A DNA stretch of 64,000 nt. Source: an uncultured Mucispirillum sp. Its GTDB lineage: Bacteria; Chrysiogenota; Deferribacteres; Deferribacterales; Mucispirillaceae. The position numbers and the translations under genes are program-made. The stretch's first letter is position 1. Each line of letters begins with the position of its first letter. The notes beneath the pieces are model-generated. The model was not told the DNA's origin, made no database searches, and saw only the letters and a list, made by a program, of their open reading frames with translations. Below, one piece after another: positions 50,150-64,000 of this stretch. Location of the stretch: assembly GCA_944326705.1 (NCBI GenBank), contig CALVEY010000004.1:1-64000 (forward strand). The letters are read 5' to 3'.

Positions 50150-50962
50150 ATGAAATTATTAGATAAATTTCGTATCGCTTTAAAATATAATGTTGAGAGA
50201 TATTGTAAAATGTTTAAATATTATTTTTTATTGCAGCAGCTTGTAGCAAAAGAATTTAAATTAAAGTACAGGGGAAGTATACTTGGTATTTTATGGAGTG
50301 TTTTAAATCCATTATTAAATATGTTAGTATTAAGTATTGTATTTGGGCAGGTTTTTAGTGCTGTAGATAACTATAAACTGTACTTATTGTCTGGTATTAT
50401 AATGTTTTCTTTTTTTGCAGAAGCAACAGCAAGCGGTACATGTGCAATAACTTATAATTTTGGTCTTATTAATAAAATTGCTTTTCCAAAAATAGTTCTG
50501 CCATTATCAAAAGTATTTTTATCATTTATAAACTTTATAATGTCATTTATTGTATTTTTAATATTAGGAAGTTTTATAGGATTGGAGTTCTGGGCTGGTG
50601 ATTTTGCTCTTATTTTACCTATAATTTTATTACTAATGTTTACAATTGGTTTTTCATTAATACTTTCTGTTGTTAACGTATATTTTAGAGATACTCAGCA
50701 TTTATTCAGTGTTATTCTTACTATATGGATGTATGCTACACCAATATTATATCCATTAAAACTTATTCCTGAAGAGTGGCAGTTATTATTTTCAAATAAC
50801 CCAATGTATTTATTTATAGATATGTTTAGAACTATTTCTATGAATAATATGATGCCTGAAGTTTCAAGTATTTTAATGTGTTTTGGCTGGGCATTTGGAA
50901 TGTTAATTGCAGGTATTGTATTTTTTAAACTTAATGAAGAAAAATTTATTTTTTACACATAA
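50150..50962 (+). CDS. wzm: ABC-2 type polysaccharide export permease (Wzm-like)
   Basis: This inner-membrane permease exports an undecaprenyl-linked glycan such as O antigen. The 270 residues begin with a polar segment, then LVAKEFKLKYRGSILGILWS, which is typical for Wzm/TagG proteins. About six hydrophobic segments follow, and PILYPL near residue 203 is also characteristic. It pairs with the ATPase gene 9 bases downstream. The ribosome site is weak. Teichoic-acid TagG is a homologue, but the Gram-negative envelope favours O antigen or capsule. Confidence 0.92.
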   Translation: MKLLDKFRIALKYNVERYCKMFKYYFLLQQLVAKEFKLKYRGSILGILWSVLNPLLNMLVLSIVFGQVFSAVDNYKLYLLSGIIMFSFFAEATASGTCAITYNFGLINKIAFPKIVLPLSKVFLSFINFIMSFIVFLILGSFIGLEFWAGDFALILPIILLLMFTIGFSLILSVVNVYFRDTQHLFSVILTIWMYATPILYPLKLIPEEWQLLFSNNPMYLFIDMFRTISMNNMMPEVSSILMCFGWAFGMLIAGIVFFKLNEEKFIFYT

Positions 50963-50971
50963 AAGGTGAGT

Positions 50972-51697
50972 ATGGTTATTGTTAAAAATGTATCAATGGA
51001 GTATCGTTTACACACTGGAGGCTCAACAACATTTAAAGAGTTTCTGTTTGCTAGTAAACAAAATAAAGTGCCTGTAACAAGCATTAAAGCTCTTGAAGAT
51101 ATAAGCTTTGAAGTTAATAAGGGAGAAATATTTGGCATTATTGGTGGTAACGGTGCTGGTAAATCAACTTTATTAAAATTACTTGCAGGTATAATGAAGC
51201 CAACAGATGGCTCTATTAAGGTTGATGGAACAATTGCTCCAATGATAGAGCTGGGTACAGGATTTGATTTTGAATTAAGTGCCATAGAAAATATATACTT
51301 AAGTGGAGCTATATTAGGTTTTAGTAAAGCATATCTGACTGATAAGATAGTTGATATTTTTAATTTTTCTGAATTATGGGAATTTAAAGATGTCCCAGTG
51401 AAATACTTTTCATCTGGTATGCTTGCCAGACTTGCTTTTGCAATATCAACAACAGTTGTACCAGATGTTTTAATTGTTGATGAAATTCTTTCAGTTGGTG
51501 ATGTTGCATTCCAGAAAAAAAGTTTAAGGCGAATGAATGAGTTAATGACAAGTGGAGCTACTGTTATATATGTATCCCACAATATTGATTCTGTGAAAGA
51601 ATTATGTGACAGAGTTATGTGGTTAGAAAAAGGAAAAGTAAAAATGATAGGTGCTTCACAAGAAATATGTGATACATACTTAAAAAATATATTATAG
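50972..51697 (+). CDS. wzt: ABC polysaccharide export ATPase (Wzt-like, short form)
   Basis: The start is ATG 50972, after AAGGTGAG. The 241-residue ATPase has Walker A GGNGAGKST near residue 52, APMIELGTGFDFELSA typical of Wzt/TagH proteins, signature YFSSGMLARLAFA and Walker B VLIVDEILSVGD. It lacks the extra C-terminal carbohydrate-binding domain of long Wzt proteins, so recognition of a glycan cap by the ATPase is not expected. It works with the permease encoded just upstream. Confidence 0.93.
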   Translation: MVIVKNVSMEYRLHTGGSTTFKEFLFASKQNKVPVTSIKALEDISFEVNKGEIFGIIGGNGAGKSTLLKLLAGIMKPTDGSIKVDGTIAPMIELGTGFDFELSAIENIYLSGAILGFSKAYLTDKIVDIFNFSELWEFKDVPVKYFSSGMLARLAFAISTTVVPDVLIVDEILSVGDVAFQKKSLRRMNELMTSGATVIYVSHNIDSVKELCDRVMWLEKGKVKMIGASQEICDTYLKNIL

Positions 51698-55549: not shown

Positions 55550-56957
55550 AAAACAGTTATTATTTGGTCAATGTGCTCTTGCTTTGTTGAGTATATATCC
55601 AGTGTTATCTCTTTATATAAATAATATAAATGAAGTGCGTATAATAGAGATTATATTACCTATTTTGATGAATATTACTATTATAGAAATCATTATGTTT
55701 CTCATTAAATTTATAACAAAAAATTATATATCAAGCATTGTTTATGCTTGTATAATTTTTTATATAATAATGTATTTTAAATTAATAGATGAAAATCAAA
55801 TGTCATCAATTCCTTATTGGAATTCTGTACCTTTAGTTCTATACATAACTATTGTATTATTATTTATTATTCATAAGACAAAACTAAGAAAGGTACTCGA
55901 TAAAATACTATTATTTTCTGTAATTGGTATAATCGCATCATTATTAGTTTCTATTATTAATAATATAGACCAAATAAAAATTTTATCTAGCAATGAAACA
56001 TTTAGTGATAACAAAGTAGAATTTATTGAAGATAATAATAGTATGGAATTTTATAAAAAGAATGAATTGCCTAATATATATTATATAATATTAGATGAAT
56101 ATTCATCATTTAAACAAATGAAAAAATGGTATGATTATGATAATAAAGAATTTTACGATTTTTTAAAAAAACATAATTTTAATATAATAGAAGATAGCCG
56201 AAATGAAAGTATGAATTCTTCAACAATGTATATAACTACTAATTTAATAAATATAAGTTATGTATCTGTGGACAATAATTATATAAAGGCAAATAAATTA
56301 AGAGAACAACCTTTTTTGTTTAAATTACTTGATAAATATGGATATAATGTAAATTATCAAGGTGGTCCACAAATAGGATGGAATAATTCTAAAATAAAAA
56401 TATCAAGTACAACTATAGAAGGTTATACTTTATTAGATATAATATATGGGAATAATATTCTATATCCATTGTTTGAAAAAAATATAAATGTTATGCAACA
56501 AAAAGAATTAGACTTATACAATTATCTAGAAAATTATATAAATATTGTTAAAAAGTCATCATTTTTATATATACATTTTAGAGCTGGACATGTTCCTCTA
56601 ATATTTAATGAAAATACTATAAATACACCTGATAAATTTTTTAATAATATAGATAAATCTCTATATATAGGACAAATAAAGTATACTAATAGTAGAATAA
56701 TGCAAATGGTATCAAACATAATAGAAAAAGATCCAGATAGTATAATAATTATACAAAGTGACCATTCTCAGAGAAATTTACGAAATGCAAGTAGAAAAAA
56801 AATAATACCTGTTAAAGATTCTCAGCAGGTTTTTAATGCAGTATATTATAAAGGCGAAACTTTAGAGTTTGATAATACTTTATCAGGCGTTAATACAGTT
56901 AGACTTGTAATTGATAAAATCTTAAATACAAATTTAGGAGTGATAGATGTTCCGTAA
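55542..56957 (+). CDS. Membrane protein with a sulfatase/alkaline-phosphatase-fold domain
   Basis: The 471-residue protein has about four membrane segments in the first 150 residues, then an extracytoplasmic domain. IYYIILDEYSS near residue 185 matches the first metal-site strand. FLYIHFRAGHVPL and IIIQSDHSQRNL near 405 match the later metal-site elements. LTA-synthase-like and phosphoethanolamine transferases share this layout. It could transfer a phosphorylated group to the glycan or remove one. The DNA is visibly more AT-rich than the flanking genes. It overlaps both neighbours (8 and 11 bases). Confidence 0.7.
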   Translation: MNRKQLLFGQCALALLSIYPVLSLYINNINEVRIIEIILPILMNITIIEIIMFLIKFITKNYISSIVYACIIFYIIMYFKLIDENQMSSIPYWNSVPLVLYITIVLLFIIHKTKLRKVLDKILLFSVIGIIASLLVSIINNIDQIKILSSNETFSDNKVEFIEDNNSMEFYKKNELPNIYYIILDEYSSFKQMKKWYDYDNKEFYDFLKKHNFNIIEDSRNESMNSSTMYITTNLINISYVSVDNNYIKANKLREQPFLFKLLDKYGYNVNYQGGPQIGWNNSKIKISSTTIEGYTLLDIIYGNNILYPLFEKNINVMQQKELDLYNYLENYINIVKKSSFLYIHFRAGHVPLIFNENTINTPDKFFNNIDKSLYIGQIKYTNSRIMQMVSNIIEKDPDSIIIIQSDHSQRNLRNASRKKIIPVKDSQQVFNAVYYKGETLEFDNTLSGVNTVRLVIDKILNTNLGVIDVP

Positions 56958-59190
56958 AAAATATTTTATTTTTACAACAGTTATATTAATACTCTATCTT
57001 ACAACATCAAATTTTTATATGTATAAATTATTTGATGATACAACTGAAAAAATAAAAAAAATTAATATTGAACACTATAATGAGATTTCATATTTAGAAA
57101 GTCATAAAGGTTTATATTTTTGGTTGTTAAATCCTCAAGAAAAATACAATATGATATCTGTTAATATTGATGGAGGATTCTATGATAAAAAGTCATGTGA
57201 AAATATAAAGTATGATAATATGAGTTTATATTTATTAGGTAAAACAAACTATATAATAGAAAGTTATAATAGATTCTCTCCATTTCTTACAAGAACTAAT
57301 GATATATCAGGCTCATATAAGGGGTTTAATAGCAATTTTAATACTTTTATAGTAAAAGATGGTGTATATAGTTTAGGTATAATGGATCAGGAAAATAATA
57401 TAATTAAATCAACTGAAAGAAAAATATATAAAAGAGATAATAAAGTAATGCAGACTGCATATGACCTAAATGATGATGAAGTAAAAAGATTAATGACTAA
57501 TAATTATAAAAATATAAATAATACAGAATTAACACTGATTAATCCAACTAAAATAAAAAGAATAGATAAAAATTTATATAATATATCAGGAATATTATTT
57601 ATCAAAAATGAAAATATAGATTCGTATGACAGTGTTGCATATATAAAAATAATGACAGATAATGAAAGTAAAATATATAGAATTCCAATGTTATATAATG
57701 AATGGATGGAAAAAAATATTGGAGAATATTCAAGAATATCTATGTTTATAACAAATGTGTATATAGAGGATTTTGACGAAGCAAATATAGAATATATGAT
57801 AGTAAATAATAATCAATTATATAAAAATGATAAAATATATTACTACCAAAATCAAATTGATAATGATAATTTAACATTATCATTTACGCATCAAGGGTAT
57901 AATATTAAGTATAACCCTGTATATGATAATATGTTGCGTGAAAAATATATAGGAATAGATAAAGATAATAAAAATTTTATTTTTAGAGGTTCTTTATATA
58001 AAGAAAATGACGAATCAAGCAGTTATGATATAATAGTAGAAATTAGAAATGAAAATGGTAATTTCAGTTATAATGTGCCAAAAACATACAGTAAGTATAT
58101 GGCAGATATCGAAGGAGAAAAATACGCATATTCTCATATATTATTAAATTTATCAAAAGAACAATTATCTAATAATGGAGTAATAAAACTATATCTGAAA
58201 AAAGGAGATAATTATTATACAACAGGAAGAGAGTATGAATATTTTTATGATAATGAAACTTATATAATAAAAGATGATGTAGATAATAAAAGCAAAATAG
58301 GTCAGAAAAAAGATATTTTTGAGGCTACTGAAGGAACAACATATAAAAGTGGCGTAAACGAACTAGAGACTGCATATGACCTAAATGATGATGAAATAAA
58401 AAGATTAATGACTAATAATTATAAAAATATAAATAATACAGAATTAACACTGATTAATCCAACTAAAATAAAAAGAATAGATAAAAATTTATATAATATA
58501 TCAGGAATATTATTTATCAAAAATGAAAATATAGATTCGTATGACAGTGTTGCATATATAAAAATAATGACAGATAATGAAAGTAAAATATATAGAATTC
58601 CAATGTTATATAATGAATGGATGGAAAAAAATATTGGAGAATATTCAAGAATATCTATGTTTATAACAAATGTGTATATAGAGGATTTTGACGAAGCAAA
58701 TATAGAATATATGATAGTAAATAATAATCAATTATATAAAAATGATAAAATATATTACTACCAAAATCAAATTGATAATGATAATTTAACATTATCATTT
58801 ACGCATCAAGGGTATAATATTAAGTATAACCCTGTATATGATAATATGTTGCGTGAAAAATATATAGGAATAGATAAAGATAATAAAAATTTTATTTTTA
58901 GAGGTTCTTTATATAAAGAAAATGACGAATCAAGCAGTTATGATATAATAGTAGAAATTAGAAATGAAAATGGTAATTTCAGTTATAATGTGCCAAAAAC
59001 ATACAGTAAGTATATGGCAGATATCGAAGGAGAAAAATACGCATATTCTCATATATTATTAAATTTATCAAAAGAACAATTATCTAATAATGGAGTAATA
59101 AAACTATATCTGAAAAAAGGAGATAATTATTATACAACAGGCAGGGAATATATCTATAATTTTGAAAATGATACATATTCCATTAAATAA
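56947..59190 (+). CDS. Membrane-anchored protein with two near-identical 258-residue repeats
   Basis: The 747-residue protein begins with one membrane segment (about 7-25) and a unique region to about residue 169. Then come two copies of the same domain, at about 170-427 and 475-732, joined by a 48-residue Lys/Asp/Asn-rich linker. The copies differ by one residue that I could find (Val/Ile in DDEVKRL and DDEIKRL). The domain is rich in Tyr, Asn, Ile and Lys and looks beta-structured. I recognise no family. It overlaps the sulfatase-fold gene and is strongly AT-rich. It may bind or modify the exported glycan outside the inner membrane. Confidence 0.75.
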   Translation: MFRKKYFIFTTVILILYLTTSNFYMYKLFDDTTEKIKKINIEHYNEISYLESHKGLYFWLLNPQEKYNMISVNIDGGFYDKKSCENIKYDNMSLYLLGKTNYIIESYNRFSPFLTRTNDISGSYKGFNSNFNTFIVKDGVYSLGIMDQENNIIKSTERKIYKRDNKVMQTAYDLNDDEVKRLMTNNYKNINNTELTLINPTKIKRIDKNLYNISGILFIKNENIDSYDSVAYIKIMTDNESKIYRIPMLYNEWMEKNIGEYSRISMFITNVYIEDFDEANIEYMIVNNNQLYKNDKIYYYQNQIDNDNLTLSFTHQGYNIKYNPVYDNMLREKYIGIDKDNKNFIFRGSLYKENDESSSYDIIVEIRNENGNFSYNVPKTYSKYMADIEGEKYAYSHILLNLSKEQLSNNGVIKLYLKKGDNYYTTGREYEYFYDNETYIIKDDVDNKSKIGQKKDIFEATEGTTYKSGVNELETAYDLNDDEIKRLMTNNYKNINNTELTLINPTKIKRIDKNLYNISGILFIKNENIDSYDSVAYIKIMTDNESKIYRIPMLYNEWMEKNIGEYSRISMFITNVYIEDFDEANIEYMIVNNNQLYKNDKIYYYQNQIDNDNLTLSFTHQGYNIKYNPVYDNMLREKYIGIDKDNKNFIFRGSLYKENDESSSYDIIVEIRNENGNFSYNVPKTYSKYMADIEGEKYAYSHILLNLSKEQLSNNGVIKLYLKKGDNYYTTGREYIYNFENDTYSIK
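57452..59141 (+). repeat. Direct duplication, 775 bp, period 915 bp, within the repeat protein gene
   Basis: Copy one spans 57452-58226 and copy two 58367-59141. I compared the first part base by base and the full protein translations. The only difference I found is G at 57481 against A at 58396. A 915-base period is 305 codons, so gain or loss of a unit keeps the frame. Divergence this low points to a recent duplication or ongoing gene conversion. Confidence 0.9.
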
Positions 59191-59249: not shown

Positions 59250-60971
59250 ATGAGTGATTTTAGAACATTACAAAAAAACAGCCGTAAAGAGTGCGATGGT
59301 GCAAAAGTATCTGTTTGTATAATGGGGGATGTTGCTACACAGTTTTTAGCACAGGCGGTTAAAGGTTATGGTTACGAATGTAACTTAAACTTAAATATTA
59401 CAGATATAGATTATAATCAAATAGATATGCAGACAATGGACGCTGATTCTGAGCTGTATGAATCTAAAAGTGATTATGTGCTTATATATATGAGTGCAGA
59501 AAAACTGTATGAAAAATTCTGCCACACAGATATTTCTTTAAGAGATAAATTTGCTGAAATGCAGGTAGAATATATTAAAGAAGTGCATAATAGAATAAAC
59601 AGCAATGTAAATTCTAAAATTCTTCAGTTTAATTTTATAGAAATAAATGACGGCGTATTTGGCTCATACAGTAATAAAGTACCTGTTTCTTTTGTATTTC
59701 AAATAAAAAAATTAAACTACCTTTTAAATGAATATACAGTAACAGCAAAAAATGTATTTATTATAGATTTATCATCATTAGCAGTTAAATACGGCTATGA
59801 TTTTATATTGAATGAAAAATATTTTTATTCTGCAAAAATGGCTTTAAGCATAGAAATACTTCCACATGTGGCTAAATCTGTTATAGATGTAATAAAAGCA
59901 GTTTCTGGTTCAATTAAAAAATGTGTTATATTAGATTTAGATAACACATTATGGGGTGGAGTAATAGGCGATGATGGGCTTGGCGGTATACAGATTGGTG
60001 AGCTTGGTGCAGGCCATGCTTTTTCTGATTTTCAAGCCTATTTTTTAGAACTGAAAAAAAGGGGCATTATTCTTGCAGTATGTAGTAAAAATAATGAAGA
60101 TACAGCAAAAGAACCATTTAACAGTCATCCAGAAATGGTGTTAAAGCTAAGTGATATTGCAGTGTTTGTGGCAAACTGGGAAGATAAAGCAAGCAATATA
60201 AAATATATTAAAGAAACATTAAATTTAGGATATGACAGTTTTGTTTTTATAGATGATAACCCATTTGAAAGAAACCTTGTAAAATCTGTCCTTCCAGATG
60301 TTACAGTGCCTGATATGCCTGAGGACCCAGCATTATATTTAAGTTATATTCGCTCATTAAATTTATTTGAAACAGCATCATATTCCAGCGAAGATATAAG
60401 CAGAACTGAGCAGTATCAGGCAGAAATTGGTCGTAAATCATTAGAAGCGTCATACAGCAATATTGATGACTATCTGCAAAGTCTTGAAATGCAGGCAGAA
60501 GCAAAAGCATTTGATGAATTTCATTATTCAAGAATTGCACAGCTTACACAAAGGTCAAACCAGTTTAATTTAAGAACTATAAGATATACAGAAGCAGATA
60601 TAGAAAAAATCAGTAAAGATGATAATTATTTAACAATATATTTTACTCTTAAGGATAAATTTGGCGACCATGGACTTATCAGTGTGGTAATTATGAAAAA
60701 AGTTGATAATGAAACACTTTTTATTGATACATGGCTTATGAGCTGCAGGGTTTTAAAGCGCGGTATGGAAGAGTTTATAGTAAACAAAATGATTGACATA
60801 GCTAAAAAGAATGGATATAAAACTGTACAAGGCGAATATATTAAAACACCAAAAAATGCTATGGTAGAAAAAATATACTCAAAACTTGGCTTTCATGATA
60901 ATGGCGATAATTCCTACACAGCAGATGTTAATGCATTTATAAATAATAAAACACTTATCAAGGAGATTTAA
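59250..60971 (+). CDS. FkbH-like HAD-IIIC enzyme (acyl carrier protein loader)
   Basis: The 573-residue protein has an SGNH-like N-terminal part (about 18-215), a HAD domain with Asp229 and Asp231 in VILDLDNTLWGGVIGDDG, and VFIDDNPFERN as the later metal-binding strand. The C-terminal part is GNAT-like (about 420-560) and starts with IAQLTQRSNQFNLRT. In polyketide pathways FkbH proteins take 1,3-bisphosphoglycerate, remove phosphate and load a glyceryl group on an acyl carrier protein. The carrier gene lies one base downstream. A glyceryl or related three-carbon donor is therefore plausible. The ribosome site is TAGGGAGAATATT. Confidence 0.88.
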   Translation: MSDFRTLQKNSRKECDGAKVSVCIMGDVATQFLAQAVKGYGYECNLNLNITDIDYNQIDMQTMDADSELYESKSDYVLIYMSAEKLYEKFCHTDISLRDKFAEMQVEYIKEVHNRINSNVNSKILQFNFIEINDGVFGSYSNKVPVSFVFQIKKLNYLLNEYTVTAKNVFIIDLSSLAVKYGYDFILNEKYFYSAKMALSIEILPHVAKSVIDVIKAVSGSIKKCVILDLDNTLWGGVIGDDGLGGIQIGELGAGHAFSDFQAYFLELKKRGIILAVCSKNNEDTAKEPFNSHPEMVLKLSDIAVFVANWEDKASNIKYIKETLNLGYDSFVFIDDNPFERNLVKSVLPDVTVPDMPEDPALYLSYIRSLNLFETASYSSEDISRTEQYQAEIGRKSLEASYSNIDDYLQSLEMQAEAKAFDEFHYSRIAQLTQRSNQFNLRTIRYTEADIEKISKDDNYLTIYFTLKDKFGDHGLISVVIMKKVDNETLFIDTWLMSCRVLKRGMEEFIVNKMIDIAKKNGYKTVQGEYIKTPKNAMVEKIYSKLGFHDNGDNSYTADVNAFINNKTLIKEI

Positions 60972-60972
60972 T

Positions 60973-61212
60973 ATGACAAAAAGCGAAGTAATGGAAAAAA
61001 TAAAAGAAATTTTAAATGACCTATTTGATGATGATTTTGATGTTACAGAAAGCACTGTAGCAGATGATATAGACGGCTGGGATTCATTAGCTCATCTGCA
61101 GGTAATCTCTGCAATGGAATCAGGCTTTAATATACACTTTACTCTTGGCGAAATCAATAATTTTGCAAATGTAGGGGAAATGGCTGACAGTATTCTTAAA
61201 CATTTAGGATAA
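60973..61212 (+). CDS. Stand-alone acyl carrier protein
   Basis: The 79-residue acidic protein has the phosphopantetheine site GWDSLAHLQ with Ser38 and the four-helix pattern of carrier proteins (MEKIKEILNDLF; FANVGEMADSILKHL). It is not the fatty-acid AcpP, since it lies between an FkbH-like enzyme and an MBOAT gene. It should shuttle the acyl or glyceryl group from the first to the second. It needs a phosphopantetheinyl transferase encoded elsewhere. Confidence 0.93.
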   Translation: MTKSEVMEKIKEILNDLFDDDFDVTESTVADDIDGWDSLAHLQVISAMESGFNIHFTLGEINNFANVGEMADSILKHLG

Positions 61213-61277
61213 TGGTTAAATTTAATCATTATTCTGCTTTTTTCATAAAATTTAATTTCATAATATAGAAGGGTTGC

Positions 61278-62759
61278 ATGGCTTTTACTTCAGTTAGTTT
61301 TGTTTTTCTTTTTCTTCCAATAACTATAATATTATACTATTTACTGCCTAAAATTGCTTATAAAAATATTCTGTTAGTGATATTATCATTACTATTCTAT
61401 GCCTGGGGCGATAAAAATTTTATTTATCTATTTATCATAAGTATATTTGTAAACTACTGTTTTGGGCTGCTGTTTGATAAATATAAGAATAAGTTTATTA
61501 ATAAAATTTTTGTTTTCCTAATGATTGTATGGAACTTTGGAATATTATACTATTTTAAATACTTAATTTTTACAGTAAACAGTATTAACAGCATTGCAGA
61601 TTTAACTCTTACAGTTCCAAATATTATTACACCGCTTGGAATTTCATTTATTACTTTCAGGGCTGTATCATACTGTCTTGATGTATTTTTTCAGGCATGC
61701 TCGGCAAGCAGAAATCCTATAAATGTAGCTCTTTATATCACATTTTTCCCGCAGGTTATAATGGGGCCTATTACAAAATATTATGAATTTGAGCCGCAAA
61801 TTAATAAAAGAGAGTTCAGTTTAGATAATTTTACAGAAGGTATTGAACGTTTTATTATTGGTTTAGCAAAGAAAATCCTTATAGCTGATAATATTGCTCC
61901 AATGGTTAATACAATATTTACTATGGAAGCATCAGAAAGAACAATTGTTCTTGCATGGATTGGTGCACTAGGTTATTTAATTCAGCTGTATTTTGATTTT
62001 TCTGGATATTCTGATATGGCAATAGGCATAGGCAAAATGCTTGGATTTAAAACACCAGAAAACTTTAATTATCCATATATGTCCAGGTCTGCAGTGGAAT
62101 ACTGGAGCAGGTGGCATATTACACTTGGCACATGGGTAAAAGATTATATATATGTTCCTGTATATAGAGCAATGTCTAATAAGCAGAATATATTTACACA
62201 TGAAAAATTTTCTGTTACTGCATCAGATACTGCTGCTTTATTTTTGGTATGGCTTTTTATTGGTTTTTGGCATGGAGCAGGGTATGCATTTTTACTTCAT
62301 GGTATGTATTGGTTCTTTTTCATATTTTTAGAGAGAAGGTATGATGCATATAAAAAAGCAAAAAGGAAAAAGTTAAAAATTAAACGTCAGGCACTAACAA
62401 GAAATGAAAAGATACTTGCACATATATATTTCATAATAATACTTTTCTTTTCCCAAACATTATTTAGAATAGCAGATGTTACTGAATGGATAGATTATTC
62501 TAAAAATATGATAGGCTTAATGGGTGCAGGCTTATTAGATGATTATGCAGTAATAAATCTGATTGATAATTTAGTATTAATTATTGCAGGTATATTCTTT
62601 TCATTCCCTATAGGAAAATATATAGCTGATAAATTTAAGGAAAAAAATCAGACTGCATTTATTTTTTCTAAATATACGGTATTACTTATACTATTTTGTT
62701 TTTCAATACTATGGGTTATTTCTGGCACTAATAACTCGTTTATTTACTTCCAGTTTTAG
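61278..62759 (+). CDS. MBOAT-family O-acyltransferase (DltB/AlgI-like)
   Basis: The 493-residue membrane protein has about ten hydrophobic segments. The family marks are YFDFSGYSDMAIGIGKMLGF, NFNYPYMSRSAVEYWSRWH with His280, and the invariant His332 in LFIGFWHGAGYAFLLHG. DltB and AlgI move acyl groups across the inner membrane to an outer acceptor. Position after an acyl carrier protein and before an AlgJ/AlgX-like protein suggests a carrier-dependent route. The start follows GAAGGGTTGC. Confidence 0.93.
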   Translation: MAFTSVSFVFLFLPITIILYYLLPKIAYKNILLVILSLLFYAWGDKNFIYLFIISIFVNYCFGLLFDKYKNKFINKIFVFLMIVWNFGILYYFKYLIFTVNSINSIADLTLTVPNIITPLGISFITFRAVSYCLDVFFQACSASRNPINVALYITFFPQVIMGPITKYYEFEPQINKREFSLDNFTEGIERFIIGLAKKILIADNIAPMVNTIFTMEASERTIVLAWIGALGYLIQLYFDFSGYSDMAIGIGKMLGFKTPENFNYPYMSRSAVEYWSRWHITLGTWVKDYIYVPVYRAMSNKQNIFTHEKFSVTASDTAALFLVWLFIGFWHGAGYAFLLHGMYWFFFIFLERRYDAYKKAKRKKLKIKRQALTRNEKILAHIYFIIILFFSQTLFRIADVTEWIDYSKNMIGLMGAGLLDDYAVINLIDNLVLIIAGIFFSFPIGKYIADKFKEKNQTAFIFSKYTVLLILFCFSILWVISGTNNSFIYFQF

Positions 62760-62770
62760 GGGTATTCTTT

Positions 62771-64000
62771 ATGTATAAGAGAATTAAACAGGCTTTTATA
62801 GTAATATTCTTTGCTTTAATTTTTATACCAGTGCTTTTAAGTGATAAAACTGGTGGTGCAAAATCAGAAACTGAGAATAGGTATTTAGCAAAAATGCCAT
62901 CTATTAAGGAATTAAGTATTGGTTCATTTAATAACTGGCTTAATGATAATATTGCTTTCAGGCAGGATATTATAGGAATTAAAGGATATATTGAATATCA
63001 TTTTTTACATAAATCTCCAACTGATAAGGTTATTTTTGGAAAAGATGGATTTATGTTTTATACCTGGGATGATAATATAGCAATTGCACAAAACAAATAT
63101 CCACTATCAGAAATAGAGCTTAGAAAAAGTATAAAAAATTTAAGGCTTGCTAATGATATTTTAGCAAAACATCATAAAACATTTGTTTTTTCAATAGCTC
63201 CAAGTAAGGTGGGTATATATCCAGAATATTTATATGTAAAAACAGCAGATGAAATAAAAACTCCTATAGATATTTTTGATGAAGCACTAAAAGATAAAGT
63301 AAATTTTGTAAATTTAAAACAGGCACTGTATAAAGAAAAAGAGAAAAACAAAGATATGCTTCTTTATTATAAAACAGATACACATTGGAGACAGTATGGA
63401 GCATATATTGGCTATAAGCAGATATTAGATGAATTTAATTCCATAGGTGTATTTGGTAATAAAAAAGAGCCTTATATGGAAGTTGAGCTAGTAAAAGCAT
63501 TATGGACTGGTGAATTTGCAAATATGATGGGGGCATCATATATATTAAAACCAGAAGAAACTTTTAATACAGTAATAGTAAACTCAAAAATAATGCCAGA
63601 TGACTTACCAGAATTTATAAATAATTATCAGCAAAAGTATAATCCATTTAGAGTATTTGCTTTTAAAAATTATAATCAAGATAAAAATAGAAAAATACTT
63701 GTTATTGGAGACTCAATGTTTGGCGGCTGGAATTTACCCCAATTAATAGCTAACCATTTTAAAAATTATTATCATATATGGCAGCAGAAGTTTGATAATC
63801 AAACTGTTATGAATAGTGGGGCTGATGTAATATTATTTGAAATTGGAGAAAGATATTCAAGACTTGTTGGCTATGTATTAAATGATTTTGTACAGAAAAA
63901 TTATAGACCTAAAGCAGTTATTTCATCAGATGATATTCCAGAAGTAATGGAAAATGGAAAAACGTATTCATTTAATATAACAATAGAAAATAAAGGTGAA
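62771..64000 (+). CDS. AlgJ/AlgX-like SGNH O-acyltransferase, cut at the window edge
   Basis: The frame begins at ATG 62771, 11 bases after the MBOAT stop, and is still open after 410 codons at base 64000. Residues about 8-24 form a membrane anchor or signal. Then come the AlgJ/AlgX-type catalytic features: Asp203 and His205 in YKTDTHWRQYGA, and Ser315 in VIGDSMFGGW. ENRYLAKMPS near the N-terminus is also typical. Such proteins finish acyl transfer to polysaccharide in the periplasm after an MBOAT partner. The last residues seen (VMENGKTYSFNITIENKG) may begin an extra C-terminal domain. Confidence 0.88.
   Translation, partial: MYKRIKQAFIVIFFALIFIPVLLSDKTGGAKSETENRYLAKMPSIKELSIGSFNNWLNDNIAFRQDIIGIKGYIEYHFLHKSPTDKVIFGKDGFMFYTWDDNIAIAQNKYPLSEIELRKSIKNLRLANDILAKHHKTFVFSIAPSKVGIYPEYLYVKTADEIKTPIDIFDEALKDKVNFVNLKQALYKEKEKNKDMLLYYKTDTHWRQYGAYIGYKQILDEFNSIGVFGNKKEPYMEVELVKALWTGEFANMMGASYILKPEETFNTVIVNSKIMPDDLPEFINNYQQKYNPFRVFAFKNYNQDKNRKILVIGDSMFGGWNLPQLIANHFKNYYHIWQQKFDNQTVMNSGADVILFEIGERYSRLVGYVLNDFVQKNYRPKAVISSDDIPEVMENGKTYSFNITIENKGE

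Follow-up and report, generated by a model that had tools for sequence, protein, structure and literature searches.

A putative Dlt-like acylation module with an FkbH-type enzyme as carrier loader in an uncultured Mucispirillum

An FkbH-ACP-MBOAT-SGNH gene set

We analysed a 64,000-nucleotide stretch of contig CALVEY010000004.1 from an uncultured Mucispirillum sp. (the window). The contig is 98 kb long and belongs to a 2.39 Mb draft genome; the window covers its first 64 kb, and our numbering runs on beyond it. At its 3′ end, four adjacent genes encode an FkbH-type enzyme, a stand-alone acyl carrier protein (ACP), a membrane-bound O-acyltransferase (MBOAT1) and an SGNH protein. With a probability of about two in three, these genes form a Dlt-like acylation machinery in which a carrier protein feeds the MBOAT-SGNH pair and FkbH acts as the loader. 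The module belongs to neither the Dlt family nor the acetyl-CoA-dependent AlgIJ/PatAB families and, to our knowledge of the open-licence literature, the four-gene set has not been described as a system. Its genes are as follows.

59250-60971, + strand: FkbH-type HAD-IIIC enzyme, 573 amino acids (PF21211, 3e-67; TIGR01686, 309 bits)
60973-61212, + strand: stand-alone ACP, 79 amino acids, phosphopantetheine site Ser38 in W-D-S-L-A-H (PF00550, NF002150)
61278-62759, + strand: MBOAT1, 493 amino acids, with His332 (PF03062, 83 bits)
62771-64243, + strand: SGNH/AlgJ-like transferase, 490 amino acids, running past the window end at 64000 (ALGX, PF16822, 58 bits)

All four genes point the same way in tandem, separated by 1, 65 and 11 bases. 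All residues and motifs named in the original prediction (Asp229/Asp231 of FkbH, Ser38 of ACP, His332 of the MBOAT, DTHW and GDS of the SGNH protein) were found in the four adjacent genes.

The FkbH protein scored well above the TIGR01686 cut-off of 147 bits, and its Asp pair was invariant: D229, D231 and T233 were present in 115 of 115 relatives, C499 in 113 and C278 in 98. Its closest solved structure is 3SLR (BF1531, 9e-116). We propose this protein as the loader of a three-carbon acyl group onto the ACP. The ACP itself matched PF00550 with 18.9 bits, slightly below the cut-off of 20.8, and NF002150 with 3e-8, also below the cut-off. Its modification site, W36-D37-S38, conforms to the GmACP3-type motif WDSLx[HN]; the same motif occurs in 76 of 88 FkbH-linked ACPs, a count that is somewhat circular, the window ACP having served as the seed of that search. 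The nearest solved structure is the Geobacter carrier protein 2LML (2e-14), which was equated with GmACP3 of Geobacter metallireducens by sequence and description. A DltC-like pattern of hydrophobic contacts on the ACP helix was discarded as evidence, as it is general for ACPs and does not discriminate.

The AF2 model of MBOAT1 (pLDDT 91.6, pTM 0.90) retrieved DltB as the top Foldseek match (6e-13), and the sequence likewise matched DltB (1e-23). The C-terminus, FIYFQF, contains Tyr490 and fits the FXYXXF acyl-shuttle motif, which in PatA has been shown to carry acyl-Tyr (PMC12148441); F488, Y490 and F493 are each conserved in at least 90% of 40 sequences. The SGNH protein has an N-terminal membrane helix and the residues Asp203, His205 and Ser315 (D203-T-H-W and G-D-S315), which are nearly invariant among its relatives. 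It matched PatB1 and AlgJ by sequence and AlgJ (2e-12), PatB1 (8e-12) and AlgX (9e-11) by Foldseek, with a model of pLDDT 68 whose C-terminal domain is unreliable.

Recurrence of the gene set

The 80 best FkbH relatives were taken from a species-wide genome collection, and genes were called around each. In about 30 of these 80 loci, distributed over five phyla, all four genes stood together in one order or another; the hosts were Clostridia, a Desulfovibrio, a Verrucomicrobiota, a Spirochaetaceae and a Bacteroidota record. The order FkbH-ACP-MBOAT with an SGNH-type gene next was found in more than 20 loci, other orders (MBOAT-SGNH-FkbH-ACP, SGNH-MBOAT-FkbH-ACP and SGNH-MBOAT-ACP-FkbH) in several more, and a variant with an inserted gene, FkbH-ACP-(MaoC)-MBOAT-SGNH, also occurs. 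The gene 3′ of the MBOAT was not of SGNH type in 2 of 26 cases (one opposite-strand open reading frame and one integrase). An MBOAT was the next same-strand gene after 19 of 57 ACP genes versus 26 of 729 other genes in the same loci (p = 6e-12, 80 loci), and the adjacency is therefore not due to chance.

A second sample, chosen without reference to the window, comprised 245 Clostridia genomes, in which 30 FkbH loci were read. Nineteen of these had an ACP, which in six of the 19 led into an MBOAT, once via a VOC gene; three more had an SGNH gene directly 5′ of FkbH. The set was also present as MBOAT-SGNH-like-ACP-FkbH on pSymB of Sinorhizobium meliloti and as ACP-FkbH-MBOAT-SGNH-like-VOC in Rhodobacteraceae SC52. 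Conservation of the four genes together, on which the original prediction depended, is thus seen both in the survey and on pSymB. The SGNH-like protein of pSymB, WQP24420.1 (L249:4217-5446, between the MBOAT and ACP-FkbH), is annotated as a TonB-dependent receptor; judging from its motifs, with no Pfam hit, this is a probable misannotation.

Within the window's own phylum, FkbH was found in only 6 of 51 genomes, and none of the other five showed an MBOAT in the neighbourhoods read, which carries little weight for the three that lie on short contigs or lack an ACP. Linkage to an MBOAT was also rarer in Bacteroidota and Desulfobacterota. It follows that FkbH-ACP has several uses, of which the carrier-fed module would be one.

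The docking segment of MBOAT1

In DltB, the carrier DltC docks on the horizontal helix HC (residues 302-312, plus Arg317), just ahead of the catalytic His336 (PMC11035591; the chain numbering of 6bug matches the DltB numbering used there). MBOAT1 has the following counterpart.

62142-62276, + strand: docking segment D289-G333 of MBOAT1, 45 amino acids, lacking GG[NS]R; counterpart of DltB D298-G337, which holds helix HC

This segment reads PLGG[NS]R in ordinary MBOATs and spans 30-33 residues from the Asp to the Gly of WHG, compared with 40 in DltB. In FkbH-linked MBOATs it mostly spans 38-52 residues and lacks GG[NS]R. The same contrast is present within one operon: MBOAT1 has a 45-residue segment that lacks the motif, whereas a second protein encoded downstream, MBOAT2, has 31 residues with GGNR. 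MBOAT1 has lost the ordinary motif precisely at the position that corresponds to the DltC-binding site of DltB.

The motif was counted across every MBOAT encoded by an unbiased sample of 60 Clostridia genomes, and an MBOAT was considered linked if a carrier gene lay within three genes. GG[NS]R was absent from 10 of 11 carrier-linked but only 3 of 61 unlinked MBOATs (p = 6e-9, uncorrected). Because shared descent inflates this Fisher test, it was replaced by a test that compares independent pairs on a tree from which the docking columns had been removed. An earlier quick tree with a narrower linkage label yielded too few informative pairs (p 0.25). The second tree was made by a careful method from fewer rows, and its linkage label was widened to include FkbH, ligase or carrier, a choice that accounts for part of the gain. 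Linkage changes at least 15 times on this second tree; of 10 independent pairs with good support, 5.5 show the motif change together with linkage and none the reverse (p = 0.031). The MBOAT1 clade has eight members (support 100/99), all FkbH-linked and none with GG[NS]R. Taken together, carrier linkage and docking-segment change are correlated, which does not amount to proof of docking.

Long docking segments were also observed in MBOATs of about 500-530 amino acids beside AMP-binding ligases (L173, L175, L177, L179, L060, L110 and L111). The carriers at these loci are mostly DltC-like, and those of the MBOATs that are on the tree lie outside the DltB clade; this set appears to be a sister of the FkbH type in which a ligase is the loader.

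Proposed mechanism

We infer the following course of reactions. AcpS, presumably the one holo-ACP synthase found in the genome, would convert the ACP to holo-ACP at Ser38, and FkbH would then place a three-carbon acyl group on it. This group is most likely D-glyceryl, drawn from 1,3-bisphosphoglycerate, with phosphate being released. The loaded ACP would dock on the cytoplasmic side of MBOAT1 at the segment after D289, its arm would reach His332, and the acyl group would pass to Tyr490 in the FIYFQF tail. From this acyl-Tyr tail, the membrane-anchored SGNH protein would take it over at Ser315 and esterify a surface glycan, probably a polysaccharide made and exported by the locus. The downstream carrier ACP2 was considered as an alternative donor for MBOAT1 and is not favoured, as it lies 6 kb away. 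With respect to the original prediction, the recurrence of the set and the loss of the docking motif favour a module that works like Dlt, is fed by a carrier and has FkbH where Dlt has DltA, while the genes of sister loci make the glyceryl product less certain.

Several observations weigh against this mechanism. The tree-corrected test rests on few informative pairs. Among linked MBOATs, three lack GGNR but have short segments (30 amino acids in L025, 35 in L076 and L121), and the MBOAT adjoining FkbH-ACP in L234 retains GGSK. Several SGNH assignments in sister loci are based on G-x-S and D-x-x-H motifs only, with no Pfam hit. An MBOAT was found near the FkbH-ACP pair in 2 of 15 Bacteroidota cases, one of them the starting genome, and many FkbH-ACP pairs elsewhere have no MBOAT nearby. 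Finally, FkbH is absent from nine congeners; together with a drop in GC content to 23-26% at 52-60 kb (about 32% elsewhere), this indicates that the locus is variable and probably acquired.

In a rival explanation, the two halves of the module are adjacent by chance: the FkbH-ACP thioester (glyceryl or derived) would be consumed in the cytoplasm, perhaps by an enzyme that N-acylates an amino sugar nucleotide, and both MBOAT-SGNH pairs of the locus would act as plain acetyl-CoA O-acetyltransferases. The frequency of FkbH-ACP pairs without an MBOAT is consistent with this explanation, as are the Niveispirillum pair, which adjoins a WcbI-type acyltransferase instead, and the fact that carrier-less MBOAT-SGNH pairs are the majority type. 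We nevertheless regard it as quite improbable. In six loci, the four genes stand alone among housekeeping genes, without glycan-synthesis genes, including sugar genes; their neighbours, named from sequence reading, include recG, glutamyl-tRNA synthetase and aminopeptidase (L022, L045, L086) or lysyl-tRNA synthetase and single-strand binding protein (L034, L030, L023). In addition, FkbH linkage extends throughout the MBOAT1 clade, loss of GG[NS]R is almost confined to carrier-linked MBOATs, and three genomes (G051, G052, G054) encode no MBOAT other than the linked one.

Comparison with known systems

The module resembles the Dlt system (DltABCDX, D-alanylation of teichoic acids) in that a loader, a stand-alone carrier, an MBOAT and an SGNH protein form a recurring four-gene set, the MBOAT is nearest to DltB in sequence and fold, and the acyl-shuttle motif is present. 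It differs in having FkbH instead of an adenylating ligase, with no AMP-binding protein among the four window genes and the nearest ligase at 69741-71084. MBOAT1 scored 166 bits against the TIGR04091 DltB equivalog, far below the cut-off of 375, and lies outside the DltB clade. The carrier has WDSLAH and its best solved match is 2LML rather than DltC, whereas ligase-adjacent carriers are of the LLDSF type. A separate DltX microprotein is absent (the gaps being 1-65 bases), with FXYXXF fused to the MBOAT1 C-terminus instead, and the SGNH protein is AlgJ/PatB1-like.

The last feature is common to the AlgI-AlgJ/AlgX and PatA-PatB systems, which likewise have an MBOAT with a conserved His (H332 here) and a C-terminal FXYXXF tail, and an SGNH partner with PF16822, the AlgJ/PatB1 fold and Ser-His-Asp. 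Unlike these acetyl-CoA types, the module encodes a carrier and a loader alongside, throughout its clade, and lacks the GG[NS]R segment. In polyketide pathways, glycerate-utilisation and methoxymalonyl genes also place FkbH beside a discrete ACP, a pair to which glyceryl-ACP formation is assigned (PMC7489565). No FabH, polyketide synthase or methyltransferase accompanies the window pair, whose product is proposed to pass to a membrane acyltransferase instead.

GmACP3, the closest solved carrier, shares the WDSLxH motif with the window ACP, and is reportedly proposed to act in lipid A acylation. The title of its publication, as cited in PMC4847154 (reference 51 there), gives a putative role in lipopolysaccharide biosynthesis. 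In the Desulfobacterota genome G278 (L245), a carrier 66% identical to GmACP3 is encoded in a ligase-ACP-MBOAT-(gene)-SGNH operon, which suggests that the GmACP3 family feeds MBOAT-SGNH pairs in a Dlt-like role; the role proposed for GmACP3 would therefore need to be re-examined.

We found no report in the open-licence literature that joins FkbH with O-antigen or with an MBOAT in a surface-glycan setting; the matches retrieved were a pathway-reconstruction method paper (FkbH with exopolysaccharide) and an aeruginosin review (FkbH with MBOAT). A 2025 mechanistic paper describes the MBOAT-SGNH systems outside Dlt as lacking a carrier protein (PMC12148441), and a widespread carrier-fed module, if real, would contradict that statement. 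It would also extend carrier-fed acyl export to acids taken straight from glycolysis, give a function to many genes whose annotation stops at HAD-IIIC phosphatase, acyl carrier protein or MBOAT protein, and make the presence or absence of GG[NS]R a sequence mark that predicts CoA or carrier use by MBOATs. More tentatively, and with slightly less than even odds, carrier-fed MBOAT-SGNH export may be a general and repeatedly evolved means of decorating surface polymers, in which FkbH or a ligase begins a short acyl assembly line with a WDSLxH carrier as its base, the acyl group is diversified by accessory genes (epimerase, dehydratase, ketoreductase or transketolase), and the MBOAT docking segment changes with each switch from CoA to carrier. 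On this view, Dlt would represent a single branch within a far broader class.

Identity of the acyl group

We consider glyceryl the likeliest acyl group, by analogy, as the default for the FkbH family. A carrier-fed machinery handling a different group (lactyl, 3-hydroxyacyl or another acid made from glyceryl-ACP, or the product of an FkbH that loads a different substrate) is unlikely. It would account for the enzymes that recur beside FkbH among 110 sister loci, in many cases with an MBOAT: MaoC dehydratase (19), SDR (16), VOC/epimerase-like (21) and split transketolase (4). Judged from chemistry alone, the acid on the carrier might be epimerised, dehydrated or reduced by such enzymes, and the acyl group therefore probably varies across lineages. 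A second ACP with an SDR and a ligase about 8 kb 3′ of FkbH in the same cluster points in the same direction. The window module itself contains none of these four accessory enzymes, however, making unmodified glyceryl the simplest expectation, and the MBOAT1 clade shows only a VOC gene (L023, L045) and a 60-amino-acid MaoC-like fragment (L024).

Four loci (L012, L017, L029 and L035) combine a split transketolase and MaoC with FkbH-ACP-MBOAT-SGNH, L012 and L017 also having an SDR; this gene content hints at a further processed acyl group.

Native gellan is a bacterial polysaccharide bearing glycerate esters. The genes of the module are candidates for the enzymes that add such esters to bacterial polysaccharides; a search of the open-licence gellan literature returned nothing relevant.

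Genomic context and acceptor

The genes surrounding the module include the following, with those downstream lying beyond the window.

50150-50962 and 50966-51697, + strand: putative ABC-2 exporter genes of Wzm/Wzt type, 5′ of the module, assigned by reading of the sequence rather than by profile search
64258-65676: MBOAT2, GGNR type, beginning 14 bases after the SGNH gene
65687-66913: SGNH2, weakly ALGX-like
68729-69031: second carrier protein, ACP2
69741-71084: AMP-binding (adenylating) ligase with its own ACP (ACP2)

Sugar-nucleotide enzymes, RgpF and a sulfatase-fold protein accompany the exporter pair 5′ of the module, and the pair would place the module in the context of a surface-polysaccharide locus. 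This neighbourhood makes a surface polysaccharide (O-polysaccharide or another polymer) the likeliest acceptor. The genome contains LpxC, and lipopolysaccharide is therefore expected. That the carrier-fed machinery acts instead on an acceptor other than O-polysaccharide, such as peptidoglycan, another envelope polymer or the lipopolysaccharide core, is a minority possibility, with about one chance in four. In its favour, the stand-alone cassettes of Gram-positive Lachnospiraceae have no adjoining polysaccharide genes, and secondary cell wall polysaccharide is the substrate of PatB1-like SGNH enzymes (PMC12148441). Against it, the window module extends a same-strand polysaccharide and exporter locus, and the AlgJ, AlgX and PatB1 folds act on polysaccharides.

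The whole genome encodes four MBOATs and a single FkbH. The MBOAT2-SGNH2 pair (64258-66913) is probably an ordinary acetyl-CoA-type pair. It is followed, in order, by a YidC-like protein, one further protein, ACP2, an SDR reductase, the AMP-binding ligase, one further protein and an Asp/Glu-racemase family protein. The region 64258-72943, from MBOAT2-SGNH2 through the racemase-family gene, may hold a second set of acyl-activation genes within this locus. The low GC content at 52-60 kb resembles that of recently acquired surface-polysaccharide loci. Within this region, positions 56947-59190 encode a 747-amino-acid protein with a long internal duplication: the 300 nucleotides at 57343-57642 recur at 58258-58557 with 88% identity, and the repeat is longer at the protein level than these 300 nucleotides.

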